DNA from: Arcobacteraceae bacterium | GTDB lineage: Bacteria > Campylobacterota > Campylobacteria > Campylobacterales > Arcobacteraceae | NCBI GenBank assembly: GCA_021107755.1 | Contig: JAIOSF010000029.1 | Coordinates: 1-55,421, forward strand | Direction: 5' to 3' | Length of the DNA: 55,421 bases | Shown here: one piece after another, positions 45,765-55,421 of the stretch | Numbering within the stretch: the first letter of the stretch is position 1 | Layout: each line of letters begins with the position of its first letter | Made by a program: the position numbers and the translations under genes | Notes under the pieces: generated by a model | Seen by the model: the letters and a program-made list of their open reading frames with translations, nothing else | What the model was told of the DNA's origin: nothing | The model's database searches: none

Positions 45765-46163
45765 GGGGTCGACTTGGTATCGATTAGAGCAGTGAGTATT
45801 AGTTGCATGTCGGTTTGAACATATCGATAATCTGTTCACTTTTTTTAGACGCAAACAATACAAATTACGCTCCAGCTTACGCAAAAGCTGCGTAAGTTTA
45901 ACAACTTAACGGACTCCCCCTTTTAGGGGTTGAGACCATGGAGGTTCTCACCACGGATTCTATCTATGTGGGTTTAGAGGACTCAAACCAGATAGATTAT
46001 CTTTATAGCTTGATTGACTATAAGGAGACATTTAAATCTTAGCCTAAAAGTTTTCTTTGCAGGTTGAGTTGCTTTTTAGGTGAAAATTTTCAACCTCTCT
46101 AAGCATGTAGACGCTAATATGAATTGTTTTAAGACTCCGGTTCAATCCCGGACGACTCCACCA
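45765..46163 (+). ncRNA. ssrA: Transfer-messenger RNA (tmRNA)
   Basis: The 5' end GGGGTCG pairs with CGACTCC near the 3' end (one G-U pair), followed by the A discriminator and encoded CCA (46161-46163). The 3' T-arm GGTTCAATCCC is present. The tag reading frame at 45851-45892 followed by TAA encodes ANNTNYAPAYAKAA, the Campylobacter type with substitutions. At 399 nt it is of usual size. Its 3' end is the integration site of the adjacent island. Confidence 0.97.
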
Positions 46164-46172
46164 TTAAATAAT
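46141..46172 (+). repeat. attL: ssrA 3' end, left attachment repeat
   Basis: 32 bp spanning the tmRNA T-arm, acceptor and nine bases downstream. It recurs at 51665-51695 with one base missing. Confidence 0.9.
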
Positions 46173-46275
46173 CTAACCTAATCTAATAAAATCTAAATAA
46201 ACCCTTTAAATATAAGCTTTAATACGCTATAATAGTCTAAGTTAATCTAATAAGATATAAACAAATCTATCTTAT

Positions 46276-46309
46276 TTAGGGGGTAATATAAGGGGTAGTG
46301 TAAAAATAC
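46276..46309 (+). repeat. Sub-terminal repeat, left copy
   Basis: TTAGGGGGTA, then five A/T bases, then AGGGGT and TGTAAAAATAC. The same sequence with small changes lies at 51601-51637, 64 bp from the right boundary. Candidate arm-type integrase site. Confidence 0.7.
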
Positions 46310-46352
46310 CCCTTATTTGTAAAATATAAACCCCCCTAAATTTTAAGGGGTA
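46290..46352 (+). promoter_or_regulatory. int: int leader with alternative pairings around the ribosome binding site
   Basis: AAGGGGTA occurs at 46290-46297 and again at 46345-46352, the latter being the ribosome binding site. TACCCCTT (46307-46314) lies between and can pair fully with either. A further CCCCT/AGGGG hairpin (46333-46337 with 46346-46350) can also mask the site. TATAAT at 46228-46233 would make this a transcribed leader of about 120 nt. Confidence 0.45.
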
Positions 46353-46357
46353 TTATT

Positions 46358-47596
46358 ATGGCACGACAAACTACATCTTTAACAGCTACACAAGTTAAAA
46401 ATGCAAAACCAAAAGAAAAGAAATACAAGCTTTCAGATGGAGGAGGTTTGTTTTTACTTGTTAATCCAAATGGTTCAACACTTTGGAGATTAAAGTATCG
46501 TTTAAATGGAAAAGAGAAAGAATATGCAATAGGTGTGTATCCTACTTTATCGTTATCTGATGCAAGAGCAAAAAGAGAAGAGTTAAAAAAACTTATTGCT
46601 GATGGTGTTGATATAAACCAACAAAAGCAAACTAATAAAAAGATACTCAAACAAGTAGAACAAAAAAAAGATAATTCATTTTACAAGGTATCTCAATTAT
46701 GGCTTAAGAGTTATGAGAAAGAGGTATCTGAAAACTATCATATAAAACTAGGTAAAGCACTTGAAAACTATGTATATCCATTTATCAAGAATGAACCAAT
46801 AGAAGAGATTACAAGACTTGATTTAATAGAAGTAATGGAAGATTTAAAAAGTAAAGGGATATTAGAGACAGCAAGTCGTGTTCTTATGCTTTTAAATAAA
46901 ATTTATATGTATGCAGTAACCTATGAATATGTAAAGCACAATATAACAGCTGATATAGATAAGAAAGTTATATTAGGTTCAATCAAAAAGAAACACTATC
47001 CAACTTTTACAAAAGAAAGTGATATCAAAGCTTTATTGTTATCAATAGATGAATATAGCGGTGATTATACTACTAAAAAAGCCTTGCAGATGTTACCCTA
47101 TGTATTTGTACGAAGTTTGAATATAAGACACTGTGAATGGTCAGAAATTGATTTTATAGATGAGGTTTGGAGAATACCTGCAAGTAAGATGAAAACAAAA
47201 GAAGAGTTTATCTTGCCACTACCAAAACAAGTGATAACCATACTACAAGAGATAAAAAAGTTTAGTAGTGATGGAAAGTATGTGTTCCCAAGCTTTAGGG
47301 GTAAAGATAACCCTATGAGTGATAATACTTTGATAAGTGCAATTAGAAGAATGGGATACACAAAAGATGAGTTTGTACCTCATGGTTTTAGAGCTATGTT
47401 TTCGACTATAGCATACGAGAAAGCAAATGTAAAAGATGGACATACTTTTACAAGTGAAGTCATAGAGTCGTTACTTGCACATAAAGAGCCAAATAAGGTA
47501 AAAGGTGCATACAATAGAGCTGAGTATGTAGAACCAATGAGAGAGCTTATACAGTGGTATGCTGATTGGTTAGATGAGGTTAAAAATGACAAATAA
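46358..47596 (+). CDS. int: Tyrosine recombinase (P4-type integrase)
   Basis: 412 aa. The N-terminal arm-binding domain (1-85; LTATQVKNAKPKEKKYKLSDGGG, IGVYPTLSLSDARAKREE) is of the P4/DUF4102 type. The core-binding domain is at ~105-205. The catalytic domain has R252, a Lys near 279, HGFR (H342/R345), H375 in LLAHK and the nucleophile Y385 in GAYNRAEY. Catalyses insertion into and excision from the ssrA 3' end. Ribosome binding site AAGGGG is 7 nt upstream. It overlaps the next gene by 11 bp. Confidence 0.95.
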   Translation: MARQTTSLTATQVKNAKPKEKKYKLSDGGGLFLLVNPNGSTLWRLKYRLNGKEKEYAIGVYPTLSLSDARAKREELKKLIADGVDINQQKQTNKKILKQVEQKKDNSFYKVSQLWLKSYEKEVSENYHIKLGKALENYVYPFIKNEPIEEITRLDLIEVMEDLKSKGILETASRVLMLLNKIYMYAVTYEYVKHNITADIDKKVILGSIKKKHYPTFTKESDIKALLLSIDEYSGDYTTKKALQMLPYVFVRSLNIRHCEWSEIDFIDEVWRIPASKMKTKEEFILPLPKQVITILQEIKKFSSDGKYVFPSFRGKDNPMSDNTLISAIRRMGYTKDEFVPHGFRAMFSTIAYEKANVKDGHTFTSEVIESLLAHKEPNKVKGAYNRAEYVEPMRELIQWYADWLDEVKNDK

Positions 47597-48122
47597 AGAT
47601 TTAACTTATACTCACTATCAATATGTTGCGAAACAAATGGCTTTAAGACATCTAGATGCGTTAAAGTTTACGAAAGAATATATTAAAACAGGATTTATGA
47701 AAAGTATTGATAAAGAAATCAATGACTACCTTTACCAAAATTTTGGACTTGATTTTTCATATGTAGATTATGTAGATATAAATGGTGAACCAAATGAAGT
47801 AATAAAATATTCAATGGAAAATTGTATAGTTTGTAAAATACCTATTTATGTAGAGTTTATGAATAGTAAAATTGAAACTATACCAAGACAAGTTGATAAG
47901 ATAGAATTACCAACTAAATCTTTAAAAGCTTCAATAAATACAAAGGAACTCAGAATATCCTCAATAGATGAAGAGCTTTTTAAAACATATGATGCAAAAT
48001 ACATTTTTTATAAGAGCAAATACTCAGTTAAAGGAAATTCAAACGATAATACACGAACAAATGAACAACTGGAAAAACTTCACAACATAATTCAAGAAAA
48101 ACTTTGGACTAAACTCATTTAA
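47586..48122 (+). CDS. Hypothetical protein, 178 aa (island)
   Basis: I do not recognise this protein. The start is taken at 47586, where GAGG lies 7 nt upstream; the frame runs four codons further. It is soluble, Lys/Tyr/Asn-rich, with two Cys close together in ENCIVCK. A polar C-terminal segment (KGNSNDNTRTNEQ) precedes a helical end. It overlaps the integrase end, so expression is coupled to it. No transmembrane or DNA-binding motif is evident. Confidence 0.65.
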   Translation: MTNKDLTYTHYQYVAKQMALRHLDALKFTKEYIKTGFMKSIDKEINDYLYQNFGLDFSYVDYVDINGEPNEVIKYSMENCIVCKIPIYVEFMNSKIETIPRQVDKIELPTKSLKASINTKELRISSIDEELFKTYDAKYIFYKSKYSVKGNSNDNTRTNEQLEKLHNIIQEKLWTKLI

Positions 48123-48267
48123 ATACTTAAATAGGTGACATTAAATTTTTTTTTGTCACCTTACAAAACTTTATTCTTTTCGTACAATCTCATTATGCAT
48201 TTATATAAATTGGTTTGGACAATTCGCGTTATGTCCTTTAACCCTATGAAAAATTATGGAGAAAATT

Positions 48268-48453
48268 ATGCACGATGGATTTATTAGAATTAATGATGTT
48301 ATGAGTATGACAGGACTTGCAAAAAGTACTGTGTGGTTGTGGGTATCACAAAATAAATTACCAAAACCAATCAAATTATCAAGTCGAGTAACGGTATGGA
48401 AAAAGTCAGATATAAATAATTGGATAGAACAACACTCAAAGGCGGTTGCATAA
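48268..48453 (+). CDS. alpA: AlpA-like excisionase/regulator
   Basis: 61 aa, start at 48268, set by GGAG 8-11 nt upstream (the frame opens four codons earlier). A helix-turn-helix follows the AlpA pattern: IRINDVMSMTGLAKSTVWLWV, then PKPIKLSSRVTVWKKSDINNWIE. AlpA proteins activate or direct excision of P4-like islands, fitting the integrase type here. The next gene starts within its stop codon (TAATG). Confidence 0.85.
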   Translation: MHDGFIRINDVMSMTGLAKSTVWLWVSQNKLPKPIKLSSRVTVWKKSDINNWIEQHSKAVA

Positions 48454-48719
48454 TGGAAAATATAGATATAAAAAAATTTGTAGCAAACAAAGTTAAATCA
48501 AATCCAAGTTTATATGGTGGAGATAAAGGTAATACACATTTAGTGTATGACTATTTCAAAGAGATTAAAGGTATAGATATACCAAAATATTTTGATTCCA
48601 CATCTAACAGTCTTATAAGGGCTAAAAATATGTTTCTTGAAAAAGAACCAAAATTTGATTATAGGAAAATAAACAAAGGAATATTTACAGGGCTTAAATT
48701 TAATCCTTTGAATAAATAA
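48453..48719 (+). CDS. Hypothetical protein, 88 aa (island)
   Basis: Start ATG at 48453 overlaps the alpA stop (TAATG) with AAAGGCGG ahead, so the pair is translationally coupled. The 88-residue product begins MENIDIKKFVANKV and contains SLYGGDKGN and an aromatic Tyr/Phe-rich core. It is basic and soluble and looks like a small DNA- or protein-binding factor. I do not recognise it. Confidence 0.7.
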   Translation: MENIDIKKFVANKVKSNPSLYGGDKGNTHLVYDYFKEIKGIDIPKYFDSTSNSLIRAKNMFLEKEPKFDYRKINKGIFTGLKFNPLNK

Positions 48720-48934
48720 AAAACTTACCACAAATATTTTTTATAAAAATAGATAAGGTTTGATATATGATTAGAGATATAGGTAAGATATTTGATATGG
48801 TTAGATTAGATATGAAACTGTAGTAGATACTTATACTATATCTCATACGAGTTAGTGTACTAAATAGTGATTATATTTAGTGAATATTAGTCTAAGATGG
48901 TTACAAATAATGAAACTAAGAAAGGAAAGTGACA
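48720..48934. other. Non-coding stretch with GATAT repeats (island)
   Basis: No open frame of useful length. GATAT occurs at 48762, 48776, 48787, 48794 and 48809, five times in about 50 bp, within TTAGA-rich flanks. Iteron-like or regulator-binding sites are possible; chance in AT-rich DNA is not excluded. Confidence 0.3.
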
Positions 48935-49288
48935 ATGGAATTATTGAAAAATTTATGTGCAAAAAAAGGTATTGAGATGATAGAAAGTGTATTAGAAGTA
49001 AAACAAAATGAACTTCCAGAAGATAAATCTATAAAAGATTTTGGAGGTGGGTATGTTGAGTGTTTAAAAACAAAAGCAAATGTAGTTTTATATTTTGGTT
49101 TTGATAAGAGTAATAACAGAGTATCTCTTAAATTTCAGATTAATAGAAATGAGGTACTTTTGTGGCAAGAAGCAATTAGTGAAAAAATATGGAATAAAGA
49201 AAAAAATAGTGATGAAATTATTGCTTTTGGAATCATAGATAAACCAATCAATATAAATGATGATGAAAGTCCATTTACAAATACTTAA
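48935..49288 (+). CDS. Hypothetical protein, 117 aa (island)
   Basis: Start at the ATG at 48935, with AAGGAAAG just upstream. A GTG two codons earlier is possible. The protein is acidic, compact and mixed alpha/beta: helix MELLKNLCAKKGIEMIES, a charged loop, and a strand pair GGGYVECLKT and NVVLYFGFDK. No known motif. It stands alone between the GATAT-repeat region and a hairpin-rich gap. Confidence 0.65.
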   Translation: MELLKNLCAKKGIEMIESVLEVKQNELPEDKSIKDFGGGYVECLKTKANVVLYFGFDKSNNRVSLKFQINRNEVLLWQEAISEKIWNKEKNSDEIIAFGIIDKPININDDESPFTNT

Positions 49289-49353
49289 AATACTTCAACA
49301 TCAACTTACAGTACTTACTACTGCATTTCGCTAAATCGCTCTTTCGTTTAGTT

Positions 49354-49376
49354 GTTGTTCCCCGTTAGGGAACAAC
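49354..49376. terminator. Hairpin between converging island genes
   Basis: GTTGTTCCC (49354-49362) pairs with GGGAACAAC (49368-49376) around a 5-base loop. No T tract follows, so termination would be weak. It lies in a 182-bp gap between two genes that converge (48935-49288 on the plus strand and the XRE gene on the minus strand). Confidence 0.4.
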
Positions 49377-49470
49377 TGCCTTTACTCAATCACTCTTAAG
49401 CTCATTTGTAGCTCTTTGATTCAGTCAATAATTTGCTTTATTACTACATAATATATAATATACAACACAC

Positions 49471-49728
49471 TTAGATAATATCCTCAAAGAAAGATGATAT
49501 AGGAACTTCAAGAACTTTTGCAATAAGATATAGTTGTCTTATATTAAAATGTTTATTTTCAAGATTAGCTTCAATTTTTGATAACATACTTGCCGAAGAA
49601 TGACCTATTGCGAGAGCTAATTGTTCTTGTGTAAAACCTTTTAGTTTTCTATACTTTTTAACATTTTTATTAATTGTTGTAAATAAAATTTCAAATTCTT
49701 CTTCATCTACATCTAAATATATTTTCAT
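49471..49728 (-). CDS. XRE-family transcription regulator
   Basis: 85 aa with a Cro/CI-type helix-turn-helix at about 18-73: LKGFTQEQLALAIGHSSASMLSKIE, then NIRQLYLIAKVLEVPISSFF. I choose 49728 because AGGG lies close upstream. Two earlier ATGs (49782 and 49824) are in frame, and the one at 49782 also has AGGGAG ahead. It is transcribed divergently from the lipoprotein gene across a short region holding a duplicated sequence, likely its own operator. Expected to act as the island's repressor. Confidence 0.8.
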   Translation of the reverse strand: MKIYLDVDEEEFEILFTTINKNVKKYRKLKGFTQEQLALAIGHSSASMLSKIEANLENKHFNIRQLYLIAKVLEVPISSFFEDII

Positions 49729-49799
49729 AAATTCCCTATAGGTGTTATTAATTTGTAAGTTTATTAAAGATACTATTTTCATGTAACTCCCTATGAGTG
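49721..49799. repeat. Imperfect direct repeat, candidate XRE operators
   Basis: 49721-49744 and 49776-49799 share ATTTTCAT, a short spacer, and CCCTAT followed by GTG, 55 bp apart. Each copy carries a possible start codon and ribosome binding site for the XRE gene, so it may have arisen by tandem duplication. Both lie between the XRE and lipoprotein genes. Confidence 0.45.
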
Positions 49800-49815
49800 A
49801 AAATAAAGGAAAAAG

Positions 49816-50286
49816 ATGAGACATTTGAAGAACAGCATAATATTATTAAGTATAAGTTTATTCATGAGTGGTTGTACACAAGCTCCATATCCAATGGGTG
49901 GAGGATTACATACTGTAAGTGCTACATGTCTTGGATTTAGTGCTGGACCAGCAGTAAAAACCGTGTATGAAGAAGCAGATAAATATGCAAAAGAAAAGAA
50001 TATGGTTGTTGTTCCAGAATCTATTACAGCAAAAGATGCAGTACCTTTTGGACCTCACCCATCGGCAGTATTAGTTTTTAGATTAGTAAGTCCTGATAGT
50101 CCAGAAGCTAAATCTAAACATAAAATGACAACTGGACTACAAAAAGTGCAGATAATTGGAAATAAACCAAAAAAAGAAGAAAGTGTAGAAGAAAAACTTT
50201 CAAAATTAAAAAATCTCTATGATTCTGGAAGTATTACAGAAGAAGAATATAAAAAAGCTCGTTTAGGTATTCTATCTAATTTTTAG
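49816..50286 (+). CDS. SHOCT-domain lipoprotein (island)
   Basis: A lipoprotein signal peptide ends in the lipobox LFMSGC with C20 as the acylated Cys. The middle contains GGGLHTVSATCLGFSAGPA and a Lys-rich stretch. The C-terminal ~28 residues form a SHOCT module (LSKLKNLYDSGSITEEEYKKARLGIL), a short oligomerisation motif. AAAGGA precedes the start. It faces the XRE repressor divergently. Its task is unknown. Confidence 0.8.
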   Translation: MRHLKNSIILLSISLFMSGCTQAPYPMGGGLHTVSATCLGFSAGPAVKTVYEEADKYAKEKNMVVVPESITAKDAVPFGPHPSAVLVFRLVSPDSPEAKSKHKMTTGLQKVQIIGNKPKKEESVEEKLSKLKNLYDSGSITEEEYKKARLGILSNF

Positions 50287-50419
50287 AATAGGAAATATTA
50301 TGACATTTGAGGAATATTAATAATTGGGGTAAAAGTTGCTATTGCTTTATTAAGTAATTATTCAGCATCTCAAAAATAAAAGATAATTATGTTAATTTAT
50401 ATTTAAAGGATAATATATA

Positions 50420-50614
50420 ATGCTATCATATTTTATAATCTTTACAATAGTTGGATTTGTAATCAATAAAATAAACCAAGACAATGAATCACAAGCTTTT
50501 GGTATTATTATTGTTGTAGCAGTAATATGGGGAATAGCTTACGCTCCAATATGGGGATTAGCAAGTTTAGGAGAGATGGCTTTAGGTTATTTTATTGCTA
50601 AACAAATTAAATAG
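50420..50614 (+). CDS. Small membrane protein, 64 aa (island)
   Basis: Two hydrophobic segments, about residues 2-15 and 27-60 (the second probably two helices), flank a polar loop (NKINQDNESQ). AAAGGA lies 12 nt upstream of the ATG at 50420. It begins a run of three closely spaced genes ending at 51428. No family recognised. The 130 bp before it contain only short stop-interrupted frames. Confidence 0.6.
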   Translation: MLSYFIIFTIVGFVINKINQDNESQAFGIIIVVAVIWGIAYAPIWGLASLGEMALGYFIAKQIK

Positions 50615-50625
50615 AAAGGGATAAA

Positions 50626-51048
50626 ATGGGTTTTTTTAGTAAAGTATTAGGAATGGATAAAACAGCACAAGATATGGCTACACTTATAGCTTTACATCTT
50701 GAAGCAATTAAATCTTTAGATTTTAATAAGAAAAATATTCAAGAGTATCTAAATAAAAATAATATTGATAATGTGATTATGAATGATGGTTGGTTAAAAT
50801 GGCAAATTATTTTTAAATCGAAAGATATTCTTACTTTACGATTATATGATGAAAATAAGGAGGATTTATCAGTTTCCGCATATTTTGATATATTTTCAAA
50901 TAGTCCACTATCTGAAATATCTATGATGTGTAGTGATAAATACAAAGACATTGATATTGGCAACTACAAAGGATATGAGTCCCAAATGTCATCTATAGCA
51001 AAAGTTTTTGTAGAAACATTGGAAGAATTAGGATATAAAAAACTATGA
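50626..51048 (+). CDS. Hypothetical protein, 140 aa (island)
   Basis: Soluble, with a short amphipathic N-terminus (MGFFSKVLGMDK). Two aromatic-rich strands (WLKWQIIFK and LTLRLYDENKEDLSVSAYFDIF) lie in the middle, and a C-terminal helix ends LEELGYKKL. AAAGGG lies 10 nt before the ATG. It overlaps the next gene by 4 bp. Not recognised; the alternating strands suggest a small alpha/beta binding protein. Confidence 0.65.
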   Translation: MGFFSKVLGMDKTAQDMATLIALHLEAIKSLDFNKKNIQEYLNKNNIDNVIMNDGWLKWQIIFKSKDILTLRLYDENKEDLSVSAYFDIFSNSPLSEISMMCSDKYKDIDIGNYKGYESQMSSIAKVFVETLEELGYKKL

Positions 51049-51428
51049 AATATATATTTAAAATAATAGTAGCATTGCTGTTATCCAAAGGAATGTTATC
51101 TGCCACCAATCAAAATGATTTATATGCTGATAAAACATTAAAATCATCTTGTATATCTAAAATAAAAATACCAACTAAATTCTATGAAATTGATTATTAC
51201 TTAAGAGGTTTAACAACAGGATTAGGTTTTATAATTAAAAGTGTGCCATCTGATTGGGATAGGAATAAACCGTTATTTGATAATAAAGATATAGTTCAAG
51301 TATGTCAAAATGCACGACTTACTGAAATGCAATATGGTAGTTTTGAAATAGCATTAGGTGCATCAATGTTTCAAAATTTAATGTCAAAAGGAATTATTTT
51401 TAAGAAGTTAAATAAATTCGCAAATTAG
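51045..51428 (+). CDS. Exported hypothetical protein, 127 aa (island)
   Basis: A signal peptide (residues 1-20, ending MLSA) is followed by a ~107-residue mature domain with two cysteines (C36, C87) that could form one disulfide. The central LRGLTTGLGFII is Gly-rich and hydrophobic. Its 4-bp overlap with the cytosolic 140-aa gene suggests a coupled secreted/cytosolic pair. No known domain is apparent. Confidence 0.65.
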   Translation: MKYIFKIIVALLLSKGMLSATNQNDLYADKTLKSSCISKIKIPTKFYEIDYYLRGLTTGLGFIIKSVPSDWDRNKPLFDNKDIVQVCQNARLTEMQYGSFEIALGASMFQNLMSKGIIFKKLNKFAN

Positions 51429-51600
51429 TAAGAAAATCAAAATGCTATTTTTGCATAATCGAATTTATATTCTCCCCCTCTTATGATTCAGTAAATAAAA
51501 AAAACTTTGATGAATAACTGTTTTAAGTTTTAATATACATACTATACTATAAAATGTTACATTAATGAGAACAGGTAATATATTGGTGTAGCAGAAAATC

Positions 51601-51637
51601 TTAGGGGGTATTTTAAGGGGTTTTGTGTAAAAAATAC
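51601..51637 (+). repeat. Sub-terminal repeat, right copy
   Basis: Matches 46276-46309 in TTAGGGGGTA, AGGGGT and TGTAAAAA(A)TAC, with changes in the spacers. TTTTAAGGGGT here (51611-51621) is also identical to 46341-46351. Confidence 0.7.
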
Positions 51638-51664
51638 TATTTATATATAGTATTTAAAGTAAAC

Positions 51665-51695
51665 TTCAATCCCGGACGACCCACCATTAAATAAT
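51665..51695 (+). repeat. attR: duplicated ssrA 3' end
   Basis: 31 bp equal to 46141-46172 except for one missing T before CCACCA. Marks the right boundary of the island; no other part of a tRNA or tmRNA accompanies it. Confidence 0.9.
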
Positions 51696-53660: not shown

Positions 53661-54998
53661 TTAATAGGTACCTAACTTTTCTTTTATTATTTCATTAGTA
53701 CAATATTTAAAAAGATTACATTTCTTTTTTTGAAAAGTATTATACTGCTCTCCTAAACTTTCTTTTTCTAATACACAAGGAGAACAAAATCCCTCTAATT
53801 GGCAATTTGTACATTCCTGCCACTTTCCAAATAAATAAGGATTTTCTTTATTAGTATACTCATCCCATACTTTTCCCATATTATCTATAGAACCAAGAAT
53901 TTTATTATGATATTCACAAAACCTTATTTGCTTATCTGGTGTAACATAAATTCCACCACGGGAACTAGCTGAACATAAAGAAATATCTCTTTTATTATCC
54001 CACATATTTTTTATCGGAATAGTCCACATTCCACCAACCTCGATATTAAATTTCTTTGCTCTACATCGTAAATCAATTAGTTTTTTTCCAACTACTTTAG
54101 TCTCCTCCTTAAGTAATGATAAATTGTCTATATTTATAGTTATATTAGAAATTTTCATTTCAGATAACCTTTTAAGTAATTTATCGCTAAATGCCATATT
54201 ACTATTTTGGTTATATACAGCACTTATTGATATGGAACAATCCTCTTTACTTAATAAAGAGAGTCCTTTCCATGTAGAATGCCAAGTGCCTTTACCATTC
54301 TTAAATTTTCTGTTAAGATCATGAATTTTTTTTTCACCATCCACGCTTATGATTACGTCACAAGAGATATCCTTTAATTGTTTAGCAATATTTTTAGTGA
54401 CAAGACTCCCATTCGTAATAATACGATATTTAATAGTAATATTATTATGAATCTTTTTATTATGCTTTATTATGTTTTCTATATCGTGCCAGTTTAAAAG
54501 TGCTTCACCACCAGTAAGAACTAAGTTAAAACTTGTAAAAGAGGGATTTATAGACTTACAAGTTTTAATATAATTATCTATAGTTTCTATTGCAATTTTA
54601 CAATCTAATACCCCTATGTCACCAATATTTCTTTCTGCAATACAATAAGTACAAGCATAATTACATTTAGTAGTTAATGTTAAAACTAAACCATTAGAGA
54701 AAAGAGATCTATTTTTTGATTCATCACTAAGTTTTTTTATAAAAAGTTCTCTTTCATCTTTGTCATTTTCAATTAAAAAATTTAAATCTAGCAAATCAGC
54801 AATGGTGGAAATTTGATCATTTTTAAGTTTCTTAAAATCAAATAATGTAAAAGGTTTATCAATATTTTTCAGGAAAAGGATAAGATCATTACCAACTAAA
54901 GTTGGATTCCCATTCAATGAATGGTACAATATTGATTTATCCTTCCCCCCTAATACTTTTAAAAAAGGTGACTTTTTAAATAGTACCTTATTTGTCAT
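53661..54998 (-). CDS. Radical-SAM/SPASM peptide maturase
   Basis: 445 aa. The N-terminal ~95 residues resemble PqqD-type precursor-recognition folds (LYHSLNGNPTLVGNDLILFL). The radical-SAM core begins LTLTTKCNYACTYC, with C112, C116 and C119 binding the 4Fe-4S cluster, followed by LVLTGGEALLNW. The C-terminal SPASM-like domain has C396, C399, C405, C408, C427 and C433, plus a Cys pair upstream (SLC, RFC). This is the layout of enzymes that crosslink RiPP precursors. It lies 17 nt behind a precursor-like peptide gene. The product is unidentified. Confidence 0.9.
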   Translation of the reverse strand: MTNKVLFKKSPFLKVLGGKDKSILYHSLNGNPTLVGNDLILFLKNIDKPFTLFDFKKLKNDQISTIADLLDLNFLIENDKDERELFIKKLSDESKNRSLFSNGLVLTLTTKCNYACTYCIAERNIGDIGVLDCKIAIETIDNYIKTCKSINPSFTSFNLVLTGGEALLNWHDIENIIKHNKKIHNNITIKYRIITNGSLVTKNIAKQLKDISCDVIISVDGEKKIHDLNRKFKNGKGTWHSTWKGLSLLSKEDCSISISAVYNQNSNMAFSDKLLKRLSEMKISNITINIDNLSLLKEETKVVGKKLIDLRCRAKKFNIEVGGMWTIPIKNMWDNKRDISLCSASSRGGIYVTPDKQIRFCEYHNKILGSIDNMGKVWDEYTNKENPYLFGKWQECTNCQLEGFCSPCVLEKESLGEQYNTFQKKKCNLFKYCTNEIIKEKLGTY

Positions 54999-55015
54999 GA
55001 ATTATAAAAGATACC

Positions 55016-55225
55016 TTATGTTCTTGCCATACAGCCACTATATTGATTAGCCAAAGAACAAGATCTTGTATTCTCTTTAGCCTGCATTGAAGGTTCTATT
55101 GACTCAATAACATATGCAGATCGCTCTTCACCTATTTCTCTTAATGCCTTTGATAAAGGAGTACCTTTTTCAATTAAAATTTCAAGTTTTTCTATATCAA
55201 CTGCTTTTTGTACGTCTTGTGCCAT
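55016..55225 (-). CDS. Putative RiPP precursor peptide, 69 aa
   Basis: A helical, charged leader of ~45 residues (VDIEKLEILIEKGTPLSKAL near 9-28) precedes a short C-terminal core of Ser, Gly, Asn and two Cys at C56 and C65, ending YSGCMART. AAGGAG is 7-12 nt upstream, a strong ribosome binding site. The adjoining maturase and the cysteines limited to the last 14 residues are the grounds for this call. The core may be cut after the Ser/Met/Gln stretch around 45-50. No family name is claimed. Confidence 0.72.
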   Translation of the reverse strand: MAQDVQKAVDIEKLEILIEKGTPLSKALREIGEERSAYVIESIEPSMQAKENTRSCSLANQYSGCMART

Positions 55226-55259
55226 AATAGACTCCTTAAAGTAATATTCTAATATTAGT

Positions 55260-55289: not shown

Positions 55290-55421
55290 GTTTTTGTATT
55301 AGTCCATAACATTTGGCACTGAGGATTATTTTCAATAAGATATTGTACAGGAGTTTTCATTAGTAAGCTATGATGTGGTATTTTAGTATTATAATCAATA
55401 AGCCAATTAGACATCTCTTTA
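55286..55421 (-). CDS. Transposase/integrase-core C-terminus, partial at window edge
   Basis: The frame runs to the window edge, so the 5' part is outside. The visible 44 residues include SNWLIDYNTKIPHHSLLMK and TPVQYLIE, matching the end of DDE integrase-core transposases (IS3/IS481 group: Trp-Leu, Tyr-Asn, Pro-His-His, Thr-Pro). It ends in TGA at 55286-55288. Whether the element is whole cannot be seen here. Confidence 0.75.
   Translation of the reverse strand, partial: KEMSNWLIDYNTKIPHHSLLMKTPVQYLIENNPQCQMLWTNTKT

Follow-up and report, generated by a model that had tools for sequence, protein, structure and literature searches.

A candidate minimal RiPP cassette of a two-cysteine peptide and a radical-SAM/SPASM maturase in an Arcobacteraceae bacterium

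The window analysed here is the whole 55,421-nucleotide stretch of contig JAIOSF010000029.1 from an Arcobacteraceae bacterium. Towards its end, a gene for a small peptide and a gene for a radical-SAM/SPASM enzyme lie together on the minus strand, beside an insertion sequence (IS):

55295..55421, minus: right end of the IS with the C-terminus of an rve_3 transposase, cut by the contig end (Pfam, contig-end comparison)
55290..55294, no strand: 5-bp target-site duplication of the IS (AAAAC on the minus strand), with a partner copy at the 3' end of contig C21
55289-55260, minus: promoter TTGACA-18-TATATT with TG before the -10 (extended -10; promoter scan)
55232..55237, minus: Shine-Dalgarno sequence AAGGAG of the precursor gene, 6 nt before the ATG
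55225-55016, minus: precursor peptide gene, 69 aa, ATG start (program ORF and sequence)
55019..55072, minus: putative core peptide, residues 52-69, NTRSCSLANQYSGCMART (from sequence and disorder in the model; leader/core boundary inferred)
54998-53661, minus: radical-SAM/SPASM maturase, 445 aa, ATG start (ORF list, Pfam, NCBIfam, PDB, fold match)
54759..54998, minus: maturase residues 1-80, a strand-rich predicted RRE (PqqD-like) domain (model, TigE and CteB matches)
54642..54665, minus: CX3CX2C radical-SAM cluster motif, C112-C116-C119, invariant in the relatives' alignment
53718..53975, minus: SPASM region with Cys C342, C361, C396, C399, C405, C408 and C427 (alignment)

The first-pass annotation had placed the maturase 17 nt after a 69-residue reading frame with C56 and C65, and this is exact, with both genes co-directional. 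The small ORF has codon-position G+C values of 0.46/0.40/0.16, a low-GC3 pattern like that of neighbouring genes, and 20 shuffles of the window gave zero ATG-ORFs of at least 60 aa with a Shine-Dalgarno-like sequence upstream; together these support it as coding. Its promoter scores 11/12 against sigma-70 and is the best site of the region, although overall promoter-like sites occur no more often there than in shuffled sequence. A Shine-Dalgarno sequence of similar quality is missing at the maturase start, from which more peptide than enzyme would be expected. Neither a terminator nor an Rfam match was found.

The precursor (MAQDVQKAVDIEKLEILIEKGTPLSKALREIGEERSAYVIESIEPSMQAKENTRSCSLANQYSGCMART, translated from 55225-55016) has only two cysteines, C56 and C65, with eight residues between them. 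Based on the structure model, its leader (approximately residues 1-51) has predicted helices at 11-19 and 24-30, and the C-terminal core carrying both cysteines is disordered; model confidence is low outside the two helices. The model agrees with the helical leader and two-Cys core proposed earlier. Cysteine accounts for 2 of the 18 core residues, which include the spacings C56-x3-N60 and C65-x3-T69. No NCBIfam precursor model matches the 69-aa peptide, and the TVGG/TIGG repeats that mark the Tvg/Tig cyclopropylglycine RiPPs are absent from it.

The maturase matches Pfam Radical_SAM (PF04055) at 44.2 bits against a cut-off of 29.5, and all seven of its SPASM cysteines are kept with little or no variation across 42 relatives, although the Pfam SPASM model has no match in it. 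Together with the CX3CX2C motif, this upholds its description as a radical-SAM/SPASM enzyme. An AlphaFold model built from the 42 relatives (pLDDT 85, pTM 0.86) has its best fold match in TigE (8VPO; TM 0.78, 23% identity) and its second in the SCIFF maturase CteB (5WGG), each over the whole chain. These matches support an N-terminal RiPP recognition element, and both structures serve as references for recognising RRE homologues (PMC12710340). The earlier description of a PqqD-like N-terminus therefore stands on predicted structure, whereas Pfam PqqD does not detect it. 8VPO is also the best PDB sequence match (4e-24, residues 12-440). Classing the maturase as an RRE/radical-SAM/SPASM RiPP enzyme is supported by the SAM motif, the SPASM cysteines, the predicted RRE and the adjacent small precursor gene.

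NCBIfam returned 55 matches to the maturase, and those shown all lie far under their cut-offs. The best are peptide or protein-crosslink maturases throughout: PapB (NF047865), at 89.2 bits against 340, then CcpM, HxsB and NlpM. PapB with its product freyrasin, and SCIFF with CteB, resemble the present pair in being the best curated model and the second fold match, respectively, and in a short Cys-bearing core. However, freyrasin has six thioether-forming cysteines and SCIFF six in 45 residues, against two here; the SCIFF maturase model (TIGR03974) scored 59.6 bits against 425, and no SCIFF precursor model matched. FibroRumin systems (TIGR04135/TIGR04136) similarly place one or more small Cys peptides directly upstream of an RRE/SAM/SPASM maturase, but their maturase is 22% identical (42.4 bits against 400), their precursors are rich in Cys and have another leader, and their precursor model does not match the 69-aa peptide. 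A viperin/pVip assignment (PADLOC) was rejected, the match being weak and confined to the SAM core (residues 107-272) rather than full-length.

No credible precursor homologue was found in 397 genomes of the phylum, in plasmids or in viral contigs, through which we ran the search for homologues beside the same maturase that the first-pass annotation had proposed. None of the small ORFs near the maturases of about 100 relatives matched the precursor either. Matches in the phylum at E 0.004-0.07 were weak and were treated as chance; internal stops interrupt four of the five frames, and the remaining one (L285) matches at 34% identity over 38 residues. Copies of the small protein away from any radical-SAM gene, which would have spoken against the earlier reading, did not occur, there being no credible homologue at all. 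No homologous pair was found elsewhere through which conservation of C56 and C65 might be demonstrated. A maturase-only pattern scan of genome contigs gave 68 pattern matches, none of them real homologues, and no close maturase homologues were found in phages or viral contigs. One viral contig (L116:92-4410) carries Cys-x3-Cys-repeat proteins close upstream of a radical-SAM/SPASM gene. In the genome-collection scan, the best full-length relatives, in Chloroflexi and Planctomycetes, are at most about 26% identical, a value from scans that relied on short exact-match patterns or on sampled genomes, so that closer relatives may exist. With no fit to a curated family, no precursor homologue and full-length relatives this distant, it is justified on sequence comparison to regard precursor and maturase as an apparently undescribed pair, in line with the earlier statement that the precursor family was not recognised.

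Nearer at hand, the closest proteins that direct search gave among 104 genomes of the bacterial family and the 397 of the phylum are QHNDH-type maturases, about 30-36% identical over the SAM core only, and one other radical-SAM protein; the plasmid search gave QHNDH and other maturases at 20-34%. This kinship would suit an enzyme that acts on a remote protein partner (of QHNDH or sulfatase-maturase type) or on a small molecule, the 69-aa protein being an unrelated small regulator, and to the eye the leader is loosely helix-turn-helix-like. We consider this unlikely. The QHNDH maturase QhpD/PeaB, which forms Cys thioethers, acts on the subunit encoded by an adjacent gene, as at the contrast loci L004 and L007, whereas no QHNDH subunit gene (TIGR03906 test) occurs among the neighbouring ORFs and no sulfatase gene stands next to the enzyme. 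Moreover, the enzyme matches RRE-bearing RiPP maturases over its full length, the two genes form a tight co-directional pair, and Pfam finds neither an HTH nor any other family in the small protein. An HTH origin of the leader was dropped on that result and for want of a significant fold match.

In the tree, the window enzyme stands alone on a long branch (2.49). Its nearest rows, L149, L150 and L148, are placed without strong support, and the loose group around it also takes in FibroRumin enzymes. Beside their maturases, L149 and L169 encode GGTIGG/GGTVGG-repeat peptides, which are TvgA-type cyclopropylglycine precursors. In L148 (L148:5155-7395), a Chloroflexi radical-SAM maturase is fused to an N-terminal segment with CACACACY that looks like an in-cis precursor. 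TigE and TvgB/TvgA resemble the present system in full-length fold with an N-terminal RRE-like domain, a conserved YHSL-type N-terminal motif and the SPASM cysteines; the TvgB reaction yields cyclopropylglycine with no cysteine involved (PMC9062424). The enzyme might accordingly keep to RiPP logic but install a non-thioether change, either a C-C bond such as a cyclopropane or an epimerisation or desaturation, with the two cysteines forming a disulfide or binding metal. The closest solved structure and these tree neighbours favour such a chemistry; the Cys content of the core, the lack of TIGG/TVGG repeats and the top-scoring NCBIfam model, that of a thioether maturase, argue against it, and we hold it to be rather improbable, if the strongest of the alternatives weighed here. 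Because the nearest relatives include TvgB/TigE-type and FibroRumin enzymes, the earlier label of sactipeptide or ranthipeptide is not proven, while the pairing of a precursor with an RRE/radical-SAM/SPASM maturase that underlay it is retained.

The earlier remark on how little such cassettes are known from Campylobacterota was too strong. A complete FibroRumin cassette (L297:1465-3187; maturase at 707 bits, two precursors above cut-off) occurs in the same phylum, an HxsB maturase in another genome (L301; maturase profile and NCBIfam), and curated QHNDH-type cassettes in others. The cassette type is not unusual in the phylum; this particular pair is. Further arrangements were seen. In other genomes of the phylum, L302:1030-2622 and L308:933-2562 each encode, directly upstream of a radical-SAM/SPASM gene, a peptide whose N-terminus is Tat-like and in which the motif CGM(G/S)(M/Y)xC recurs; the enzyme is nearest StsB, far below cut-off, and none of the RiPP precursor models matches the peptides, making them a candidate separate RiPP family. 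In L303:655-2730, a radical-SAM/SPASM gene is followed by genes for a 216-aa protein and a 46-aa peptide ending ADTICAGDVLCGSNWTTCFS; the peptide has no NCBIfam precursor match and may belong to another uncurated RiPP cassette. L298 carries the maturase and second gene of this arrangement.

The contig ends at 55421 inside the IS. In a comparison of all contig ends, its right end was reached from C10 and C23 and its left end from C4 and C21; by their 5-bp duplications, C21 belongs with C23 (AAAAC) and C4 with C10 (TTAAC). The sequence beyond the window, which the first-pass annotation had recommended reading, could thus be followed across the IS to C21, where aroE and a gene for a TonB_C lipoprotein lie. 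The lipoprotein was rejected as a cassette gene, as its family is present in 96 of the 104 genomes of the bacterial family. No dedicated transporter or protease adjoins the cassette among the neighbouring ORFs or across the IS junction on C21, which extends the earlier observation for the window; far from here in the genome are genes for two proteins of about 715 aa with a C39 peptidase domain. On the cassette's other side lie a convergent 105-aa gene and DUF423, a neighbourhood not conserved in relatives. Two copies of the one IS are present (L104:6885-7724 at the C21 3' end; window 55295-55421), and in both cases (C10 and C23) a promoter-like -35 element follows within a few bases of the insertion. 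A genomic island (46142-51695; integrase 46358-47596) is integrated at the tmRNA gene, whose tag in this genome, ANNTNYAPAYAKAA, is typical of Campylobacterota and, with the first-pass annotation, underlies the assignment to that phylum; at 51665-51695 the 3' end of the tmRNA is repeated almost perfectly (TTCAATCCCGGACGAC...CCACCATTAAATAAT). We rejected the cassette as part of this island, since the att repeat closes it at about 51,695.

About 70 nt separate the IS from the precursor ATG downstream of it, and with no transporter remaining, the locus could be read as the decaying remnant of a larger cluster that the insertion inactivated. This seems very improbable: both ORFs are intact, all catalytic cysteines are present, the promoter and ribosome binding site lie between the IS and the precursor, and the gene beyond the IS belongs to a widespread lipoprotein family, not to a cluster.

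The two genes probably constitute a minimal, thioether-forming RiPP cassette. In the role that we infer for it, the 69-aa peptide would be made in excess from its own promoter, and the enzyme encoded downstream would bind its helical leader through the N-terminal RRE. The radical-SAM centre would take a hydrogen from one of the core's acceptor residues, and a SPASM cluster would ligate a core cysteine. The product would carry one or two thioether bridges joining C56, C65 or both to Asn/Thr residues close by, most likely in a non-alpha, ranthipeptide-like linkage. An unlinked peptidase or exporter might then cleave and release the core. Thioether formation is the likeliest modification because the short core offers two cysteines together with Asn/Thr acceptors; Asp, Asn and Thr are known ranthipeptide acceptors (PMC8326336). 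The lack of a homologous pair, scores far below the cut-offs shown, the TvgB/TigE- and FibroRumin-type tree neighbours, the absence of a transporter or protease gene alongside and the low confidence of most of the precursor model count against it, and the TigE/TvgB kinship of the maturase leaves room for C-C or other chemistry.

It is conceivable, if doubtful, that the pair founds a RiPP subclass of its own, in which a TigE-like RRE/SPASM lineage would act on a two-Cys core to give a compact one- or two-bridge peptide, exported with no transporter of its own; the Gram-negative lineage concerned yielded neither a maturase nor a precursor of close kinship. Being small, intact and outside every curated model, the pair is a clean expression target of one peptide and one enzyme. 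Since the enzyme is closest to TigE in fold and to a thioether maturase by curated-model score, its product would discriminate between these chemistries and show whether this RRE/SPASM branch makes thioethers, carbon-carbon bonds, or both.
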